From assembly GCF_029633915.1 (NCBI RefSeq), contig NZ_CP091092.1:1550001-1614000 (forward strand): DNA of 64,000 bases. Direction: 5' to 3'. Position 1 is the stretch's first letter, and each line of letters opens with the position of its first letter. The position numbers and the translations under genes were made by a program. Source of the stretch: Methanomicrobium antiquum. GTDB lineage: Archaea > Halobacteriota > Methanomicrobia > Methanomicrobiales > Methanomicrobiaceae. Shown piece after piece: positions 11,043 to 48,479 of the stretch. A model generated the notes under the pieces. It was not told where the DNA came from and did no database searches. It was given only the letters and a program-made list of their open reading frames with translations.

Positions 11043-12008
11043 ATGAAACTTGAAGAATATCTTGAAAAAACAGCAGAGGATGTTGATCTTGAGCTTGACA
11101 GGCTCTTTGGTGCGGCTCCCGGAGAACTAAGTAAGGCAAGTGCCCATCTGCTCATTGCCGGGGGAAAAAGGTTACGACCAGCTGTTACAATTCTTGCGGC
11201 AGATCTTGTTAATAAAGGCTGTTCACGTGAGATTTTCCCTGCGGCTCTCGCACTTGAGGTTACACACACTTTTACCCTTGTTCATGATGATATCATGGAC
11301 GATGACTCAAACCGCCGCGGCGTCCCGACAGTTCACTGTAAATGGGATACACCTACCGCAATTCTTGCAGGTGATGTATTGTATGCAGAGGCGTTTGAGC
11401 TTATTACACGATCTATTGCAGATAATCTTGCAAAAGTACTTAGTGTGGAAATTCTGGCAAGAACCTGTGTTGAAATCTGCCAGGGACAGCATGAGGATAT
11501 GTCTTTTGAGAAGAGGAATGATGTCTTAGACTACGAATACATCGACATGGTAGGAAAAAAGACAGGAAAACTCTATGCAGCCGCGGCCGCAATTGGTGGA
11601 ACACTTGCAGGCGGAAATGTGAAGCAAACTCAGGCGCTTCATGACTGGGGATATTTCAGTGGAATTGCATTCCAGATTCAGGATGATTTAATTGACCTTA
11701 TAACACCCTCCGAGAAGAGCGGAAAAGATCAGGCATCTGATCTCTCAGAAGGCAAGCAGACTCTTGTTGCAATTAAGGCAAGAGAAGCAGGTGTTGATTT
11801 GTCAAAGTTCAGAAAACAAAATCTCTCATCAGAAGAAATAAAAGAAGCAATTGATATGCTCGAAAAGGCCGGCATAATTGATGAAGTCAGAAAAACAGCA
11901 GAGGATTATGTAAACCGTGCAAAAGAGATGCTTTCGATATTCCCTGACTGCGATGAGAAACGACTTCTCACAGAAATCACAGATTATTTTATTACCAGAG
12001 GCTTTTAA
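11043..12008 (+). CDS. idsA: geranylgeranyl diphosphate synthase (short-chain prenyltransferase)
   Basis: The enzyme extends DMAPP with IPP to the C20 chain of archaeal lipids. The 321-residue protein has the first aspartate-rich motif HDDIMDDD (D82-D86) and the second QIQDDLIDL (D214-D218), plus GGKRLRPAV (40-48). Phe77, five residues before the first motif, is the position that influences chain length; an aromatic residue there fits archaeal GGPP synthases. FPP cannot be excluded as an additional product. AAGGGAT precedes the ATG; gltX follows closely. Confidence 0.93.
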   Translation: MKLEEYLEKTAEDVDLELDRLFGAAPGELSKASAHLLIAGGKRLRPAVTILAADLVNKGCSREIFPAALALEVTHTFTLVHDDIMDDDSNRRGVPTVHCKWDTPTAILAGDVLYAEAFELITRSIADNLAKVLSVEILARTCVEICQGQHEDMSFEKRNDVLDYEYIDMVGKKTGKLYAAAAAIGGTLAGGNVKQTQALHDWGYFSGIAFQIQDDLIDLITPSEKSGKDQASDLSEGKQTLVAIKAREAGVDLSKFRKQNLSSEEIKEAIDMLEKAGIIDEVRKTAEDYVNRAKEMLSIFPDCDEKRLLTEITDYFITRGF

Positions 12009-12037
12009 AAGATGTCTGTTAATCCAAAAGAATTTTT

Positions 12038-13696
12038 TTGATTCATGCCCTTCATAATGCTGTAACACATAACAGCGTTCCAAAGGCAGGCACTGTTCTT
12101 GGGATGCTCATGGGAAAGCATCCTGAGTTTCGGCCACAGGCCAAAGAGATGTCTGCAATTCTAAATGAAGTCTTAATAGAAGTTGAAGCACTATCGCCGG
12201 AGGAGAGGGCAGAAAAGCTCTTCGAACTTGCACCTGAAATGCTTTCTGAAAAGAAAGAAAAAAAGGAGAAGATAAGAGGACTTCGTGCACTTAAAAACGT
12301 TGATGAGAAGGGCGTTGTAATGCGTTTTGCACCAAACCCAAGCGGCCCGCTTCATCTCGGGCATGCACGTGCGGCTTATCTGAATGACTATTACATAAGG
12401 CAGTATGGCGGACGATATGTCTTAAGAATTGAGGATACCGACCCAAGACGTGTTGAACCGGAAAATTATGAACTTCTGCTGGATGACATCAAATGGCTTG
12501 GAATAAACATAACAGAGACTGTATATCAAAGCGATAGATTTGATATCTATTATGAATATGGCAGAAAACTTATAGAAATCGGGGGAGCTTATATCTGCAC
12601 CTGCGATTCTGAAGTTTTCAGGGATCTAAAAAACAGCAAAAAAACATGTCCGTGCCGTGACCAGAGTGTTGAAGAAAACTTACAGCTTTGGGAGAAAATG
12701 CTCAACGGAGATTTTCCTGAAGGAACAGTCACAGTGCGTGTGAAAACCGAAATAGATCATCCCGACCCTGCTATGCGTGATTTTTCAATATTTCGGGTTG
12801 TTGACCATCCGCATCCTAAAATTGATGCCAAAGTCTATCCTATGATGAATCTTTCAGTTGTAATTGACGATCATCTTTTAGGAATCACCCATGTAATACG
12901 CGGAAAAGACCATATTGCAAATACAAGACGCCAGAGGTATATCTATGATTACTTCGGATGGAATCCGCCTGAGTATCATCATTACGGCAGAATGTCTATC
13001 GGAGATGTTGTTTTATCGACAACTGCCATAAAAGAGGGCATAAAGTCCGGGGCATATACCGGATGGGATGATATTCATCTTGGGACATTAAAGGCAATTG
13101 CAAGAAGAGGAATACTGCCTGAGGCTGTCAGAAACTCAATGATTGACATTGGTGTCGGACAGACTGACATTAAATTTTCGTGGGAAAACCTGTTTGCCGA
13201 GAATAAAGCTATTGTCGATCCTGTGTCAAACCGTTATTTCTTTGTTGAGAATCCTGTAAAATGCAGGGTTGCCGGCGCCCCTGATATGACTGCAAAAGCG
13301 CTTTTAAATCCGAACGACGAATCAAAAGGCGCAAGAGAACTTGTATTTAAACAGGAACTTTTTGTCTCGGAAAGTGATCTTAAAGGATGCTCCATGGTAA
13401 GATTTAAGGATTTATTCAACGCTGAAGTATCCTATGACGGCAGTGAATATTCACTGAAATATGCAGGAGGTCTTTTGGAGGATGCAAGAAAGAATAAAGC
13501 ACCGATTATCCAGTGGCTTCCGGCAAAAGATAATTTAAGATGCACCCTTCTCTCGCCGGAGGGCAACTGTGAGGGGCTCTGTGAAAGGGGAGTTCTCCTT
13601 GAAGAGAACAACGTCGTTCAGTTTGAAAGAGTCGGCTTTGCAAGAATTGACTCGGTTAAAGGCGAAAATGTGACAGCTTATTTTGCCCATCACTAA
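12038..13696 (+). CDS. gltX: glutamyl-tRNA synthetase, apparent frameshift at the 5-prime end
   Basis: Class I synthetase charging tRNA-Glu. The 552-residue frame has an archaeal N-terminal helical extension, the HIGH-type motif APNPSGPLHLGHARAAY (about residues 103-119), RIEDTDPRRV, and LSTTAIKEGI in the place of the KMSKS loop. The open frame begins at TTG 12038 with no ribosome site. An ATG at 12012, three bases after idsA, opens a frame that runs into the T7 tract at 12033-12039 and stops at 12039. One more T there (or a -1 slip) would fuse MSVNPKEFF to LIHALHNAVTH, giving a family-like N-terminus. See findings. Confidence 0.92.
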   Translation: MIHALHNAVTHNSVPKAGTVLGMLMGKHPEFRPQAKEMSAILNEVLIEVEALSPEERAEKLFELAPEMLSEKKEKKEKIRGLRALKNVDEKGVVMRFAPNPSGPLHLGHARAAYLNDYYIRQYGGRYVLRIEDTDPRRVEPENYELLLDDIKWLGINITETVYQSDRFDIYYEYGRKLIEIGGAYICTCDSEVFRDLKNSKKTCPCRDQSVEENLQLWEKMLNGDFPEGTVTVRVKTEIDHPDPAMRDFSIFRVVDHPHPKIDAKVYPMMNLSVVIDDHLLGITHVIRGKDHIANTRRQRYIYDYFGWNPPEYHHYGRMSIGDVVLSTTAIKEGIKSGAYTGWDDIHLGTLKAIARRGILPEAVRNSMIDIGVGQTDIKFSWENLFAENKAIVDPVSNRYFFVENPVKCRVAGAPDMTAKALLNPNDESKGARELVFKQELFVSESDLKGCSMVRFKDLFNAEVSYDGSEYSLKYAGGLLEDARKNKAPIIQWLPAKDNLRCTLLSPEGNCEGLCERGVLLEENNVVQFERVGFARIDSVKGENVTAYFAHH

Positions 13697-46718: not shown

Positions 46719-46858
46719 CCATTTAACGTCTAGTGTGTTGTATACCTGTGCATGTCATCAACGAGTCAGTTGCGTCGCGTGCTGACTCTCAGACCTTCCC
46801 CGGTAATTCACATTTCCGGGTGCATCGTAAAGCTGAATCGGTTAAAATTCAGCTTAAG

Positions 46859-46931
46859 TGGACCCAGGGGGATTTGAACCCCCGGCCTCGGCGTTGCAAA
46901 CGCCGCGCTCTTCCAGCTGAGCTATGAGCCC
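46859..46931 (-). tRNA. tRNA-Ala (UGC anticodon) in the 16S-23S spacer
   Basis: On the minus strand the acceptor stem GGGCTCA pairs with TGGGTCC and the anticodon arm GGCGT-TTGCAAC-GCC exposes TGC; the T arm holds GGTTCAAATCC. Exactly 73 nt with discriminator A and no encoded CCA. This is the usual spacer tRNA of euryarchaeal rRNA operons. Confidence 0.95.

Positions 46932-47009: not shown

Positions 47010-48479
<1,470 letters not shown>

Follow-up and report, generated by a model that had tools for sequence, protein, structure and literature searches.

The locus downstream of idsA in Methanomicrobium antiquum raises the question of whether gltX, the gene for glutamate--tRNA ligase (GluRS), is genuinely broken just behind its start codon or was deposited with a base missing. 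The window analysed here is a stretch of 64,000 nucleotides from the chromosome, which is a single contig of 2,438,126 bases and carries one GluRS gene. Three bases separate the stop codon of idsA (TAA, 12006–12008) from ATG 12012, and the frame opened by this ATG is closed by TGA 12039–12041 immediately behind a run of seven T. The frame of the remaining gene is open from TTG 12038, its first possible in-frame start, to a stop ending at 13696, giving 552 residues. The initial annotation had described both the interrupted ATG frame and the open TTG frame, and every coordinate proved exact; the frame break in gltX had been correctly seen, and its size is one base. The features of the locus are collected in Table 1. 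For idsA, IdsA-type models are the best matches, but the scores fall under their cut-offs; the gene is also the upstream neighbour of gltX in both same-genus genomes (G001 and G004).

Table 1. Features at the idsA–gltX junction, in positions of the window.
Feature	Position	Strand	Remarks
idsA, short-chain isoprenyl diphosphate synthase	11043..12008	+	polyprenyl_synt PF00348; directly upstream of gltX, same strand
AGAGG, Shine-Dalgarno-like site for ATG 12012, within idsA 3' end	11997..12001	+	duplex with 16S 3' tail ATCACCTCCT, -5.80 kcal/mol
gltX ATG start and first nine codons, MSVNPKEFF, ending at TGA as deposited	12012..12041	+	homologous to orthologue N-termini
T7 tract, one T fewer than the orthologue frame needs; T8 in nearest relative	12033..12039	+	
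gltX remainder, archaeal-type glutamate--tRNA ligase	12038..13696	+	-1 frame relative to ATG 12012
8-bp hairpin AATGCTGT-N8-ACAGCGTT in gltX coding sequence, one G-U	12056..12079	+	probably chance

The gltX product is an archaeal-type glutamate--tRNA ligase, scoring 634.3 bits against TIGR00463 (cut-off 401.75) and 752.8 bits against NF003169 (curated cut-off 516), and it is 56–86% identical to its orthologues within the order. Set beside this family and its structure 3AII, the gene has complete catalytic and anticodon-binding domains, the only part in another frame being its first nine codons. In the deposited record, the start codon with its ribosome site and the whole N-terminus do not share a single frame with the body of the gene; this concerns the record and is no criterion of the protein family. 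Substitution rates against G004 (dN 0.103, dS 1.68) are close to those of the neighbouring idsA (dN 0.105, dS 1.47) and gene 13792 (dN 0.132, dS 1.65), and this resemblance of dN and dS to the neighbours' was found against two relatives, which indicates a functional gene that is not decaying. GluRS is indispensable to the cell. As the genome has no other such gene and purifying selection acts on gltX as on the genes beside it, the enzyme must be made. A gltX in the course of being lost, with another enzyme taking over, would account for the frame break itself, but it is contradicted by the single GluRS gene, the intact 552-codon frame and the neighbour-like dN and dS, and we give this explanation practically no weight.

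We then read orthologue N-termini at 39 loci besides the copy in the window (L002–L040), 34 of which belong to the same order (L002–L035, including two duplicates). In all the orthologues fetched from Methanomicrobiales, the N-terminus and the IHAL-type motif lie in a single unbroken frame from ATG, for example MSVDPQNFF-LIHALHNAV (L002/L031, the nearest relative), MPVDPKEFF-LVYALENAV (L003), MSVDPREFF-YIHALQNAV (L004) and MSVDPREFF-LIHALSNAV (L005, L007). No frame break in gltX was present at the 34 loci of the order (two being duplicates), including those of the two same-genus genomes. Because MSVNPKEFF matches orthologue N-termini whose frame runs straight into the LIHALHNAV segment, the join of the two frames is no chance open reading frame. 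The nearest relative has eight T (AAC-T8-A) where the window has seven, so that the break is explained by one missing T; with one T added, the window reads MSVNPKEFFLIHALHNAV, matching MSVDPQNFFLIHALHNAV of that relative. The comparison of orthologous 5' ends, which the initial annotation had asked for, therefore bears out its proposals that the two frames fit together exactly given one extra T or a -1 slip, and that the TTG 12038 frame lacks the first residues ahead of IHALHNAV, which the orthologues carry in one frame. The open frame of 557 codons in the window is shorter than that of every full-length orthologue found (561–678 codons), and hydrophobic positions just ahead of the IHAL motif are retained as far as the Thermococcus and Lokiarchaeota sequences. 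An exact-pattern scan of viral contigs found no second copy of the junction.

The translation start signals distinguish sharply between the two possible starts. The 3' end of 16S rRNA in this genome is GGATCACCTCCT; one of the three 16S rRNA genes lies on the minus strand of the window (47012–48479), accompanied by a tRNA-Ala at 46858–46931. The AGAGG site ahead of ATG 12012 has a strength equalled in 40% of the reliable starts versus 9% of random positions, and its sequence is common to L002/L031 and L004. TTG 12038, in contrast, had been suspected of lacking a ribosome site, and the duplex upstream of it amounts to only -0.10 kcal/mol versus -5.80 kcal/mol at ATG 12012, that is, no Shine-Dalgarno site. 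TTG codons account for 23 of the 184 reliable starts of the genome and have a mean duplex energy of -5.23 kcal/mol, which makes an ordinary start at TTG 12038 unlikely. If the seven T are real, the remaining routes to the enzyme would be a slip on the tract or reinitiation on the TTGA stop/start overlap.

A slip could also be programmed, as the initial annotation had considered. On this reading, -1 ribosomal frameshifting would regulate GluRS synthesis, and fucA1 of Sulfolobus solfataricus would be its archaeal counterpart. Frameshifting of the -1 type does exist in archaea (PMC8211752), and an 8-bp hairpin lies downstream of the T tract. The zero-frame codons are GAA TTT TTT TGA, however, which form the heptamer A TTT TTT rather than X XXY YYZ, where the first three bases would be identical, and which permit perfect -1 re-pairing of tRNA-Phe on the second TTT only. 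The hairpin starts 16 nt past the tract rather than at the usual 5–9 nt (PMC8211752); examined as a stimulator, it was rejected, being weaker, altered or absent in 13 relatives; of the 14 loci compared, the window alone has it in this form. There is no internal Shine-Dalgarno-like stimulator before the T tract, and no Rfam element was found near the site. Neither the slippery site nor the frame arrangement is conserved, all fetched orthologues, including the 34 unbroken loci of the order (two of them duplicates), being read in one frame. With none of the tested defining features of programmed frameshifting found here, this proposal is not supported, and we regard it as very improbable.

A recent one-T deletion in a mutable T8 would instead leave full-length GluRS to be made from a minority of slippage events. 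In one route, the P-site tRNA-Phe would re-pair from TTT 12036–12038 to TTT 12035–12037 with TGA in the A site; in the other, RNA polymerase would add one U on the T7 tract. The backstep of one base restores the orthologous protein exactly, the re-pairing on the T run is perfect, gltX is under normal constraint, and no second such indel occurs in the rest of the assembly as covered by 352 checked genes. Endosymbionts, mitochondria and chloroplasts provide known cases of such corrective frameshifting (PMC5009743; PMC8254509). Against these points, an essential enzyme would hang on a low-yield event, and the arrangement is seen in no relative. For slippage during transcription, the T7 tract is also short of the length of about nine A/T that applies in many bacteria, although the archaeal polymerase may differ; in those bacteria, runs of about nine are evidently selected against (PMC1088944), and A8 was insufficient for slippage in chloroplasts (PMC8254509). 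We consider rescue by slippage unlikely.

Reinitiation appears still less likely, though it too would begin with a real T deletion. Ribosomes ending at TGA 12039–12041 would restart on the overlapping TTG 12038–12040 and produce GluRS minus its first nine residues. The TTGA overlap resembles the ATGA arrangement, which in archaea supports termination-reinitiation (PMC6728339), TTG is among the usual start codons of this genome, and the nine lost residues all precede the segment where the best PDB match, 3AII, aligns. Set against this, TTG 12038 is without the Shine-Dalgarno site that TTG starts here carry on average, and the extra N-terminal residues are kept in all fetched relatives of the order, with hydrophobic positions kept as far as Thermococcus and Lokiarchaeota. 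Taken together, slippage and reinitiation on a real deletion, which would be recent and confined at most to this strain, form a minority possibility. We hold the corresponding biological claim equally tentatively, namely that a free-living methanogen may make its sole GluRS by slippage on T7 or reinitiation on TTGA, as a case of natural corrective recoding in an essential archaeal gene.

The weight given to a sequence error depends on the quality of the remaining assembly, and to assess it we set 704 kb of this chromosome against stretches of G001, G004 and G006. The survey set comprised 352 genes of the genome whose orthologue was at least 50% identical, or about 340 kb of coding sequence. 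Only gltX had its coding sequence in two frames, and no further frame-splitting indel was found in the 351 other orthologue-checked genes of the 704 kb, either inside them or at their ends; a systematic fault would be expected to produce further errors, which a sporadic one need not do. Within these 352 genes, 65 A/T tracts of at least eight are intact, by which we judge that T8 is not systematically undercalled and that the assembly is good. Just nine of the 65 are as near a gene start as the gltX T tract, and all open reading frames of at least 150 aa in the 704 kb contain about 120 such tracts. Several survey candidates were rejected: three frameshift candidates of the first survey turned out to be antisense or tRNA-region shadows, the second survey contributed two that lie in noncoding or antisense sequence, and the other rows were, by eye, either short matches due to chance or extensions of reference open reading frames upstream of the true start. 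The N-terminal candidate at G000:1536786 proved to be a conserved leader outside any gene.

This leader (G000:C1:1536786–1536845, about 13 kb before the window) is an observation separate from gltX. It spans 60–80 nt, contains CACAGACATACATCCGAACGAYTGGAATGTCTTTGGGG and lies directly upstream of a gene whose product, by eye, resembles a cis-prenyltransferase. It is near-identical in G001 and in G006, which represents a different genus, and shares no common reading frame with the gene; its sequence is possibly that of a conserved regulatory RNA or promoter.

We consider a residual sequence error, in the form of a homopolymer indel, to be the most likely explanation of the gltX break, with a probability of roughly 0.65 that reflects judgement and not calculation. 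The true chromosome would have eight T like its nearest relative, and the deposited one would be a T short through an indel left over from sequencing or assembly. The actual gltX would begin at ATG 12012 directly behind idsA, preceded by a Shine-Dalgarno site of its own, and its product would be an ordinary archaeal GluRS of 561 residues beginning MSVNPKEFFLIHALHNAV. We infer an error rather than a mutation because the gene is essential, its constraint is not relaxed, the change is found in no relative and the tract is of an error-prone type (PMC9262707). The base is missing relative to orthologues, and the gene is otherwise functional and under selection. Homopolymer indels causing frameshift errors are documented in long-read assemblies (PMC9262707). 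In our judgement, a finished long-read assembly can retain a single isolated indel in about 340 kb of coding sequence; the literature yielded no account of the sequencing of this genome. A mutation is favoured, conversely, by the position of the break at codon 10, where a real frameshift would be best tolerated, and by the quality of the remaining assembly. A single isolated indel is compatible with a sporadic error and a rare mutation alike. The homopolymer error that the initial annotation had listed among its explanations is consequently the most probable one, given T8 in the nearest relative, the single copy and the normal constraint. If the break is an error, the matter is one of annotation only, the GluRS protein record being truncated or flagged as frameshifted. 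If it is real, recoding would be keeping an essential archaeal gene functional, a rare situation in a field with few demonstrated cases from archaea (PMC8211752).

Among known systems, fucA1 (PMC8211752) likewise has a one-base break at a homopolymer in an archaeal gene, joined by a -1 slip, and full-length homologues in relatives that differ by one base in the tract. Unlike fucA1, gltX has no classical heptamer and no conserved stem-loop, and it is essential. The chloroplast atpB gene of Oenothera I-iota (PMC8254509) shares with gltX a one-base indel in the homopolymer of an essential gene, potentially rescued by slippage. Its corrective frameshifting was shown experimentally and on a longer A tract, whereas rescue of gltX by slippage is a proposal. 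The homopolymer indels of long-read assemblies (PMC9262707) would offer the same picture, one base undercalled in a stretch of eight identical bases that breaks one frame of an otherwise conserved gene. The gltX case differs from systematic homopolymer undercalling (PMC9262707) in that other runs of at least eight are read properly in this assembly, so that an error here would be a sporadic one.
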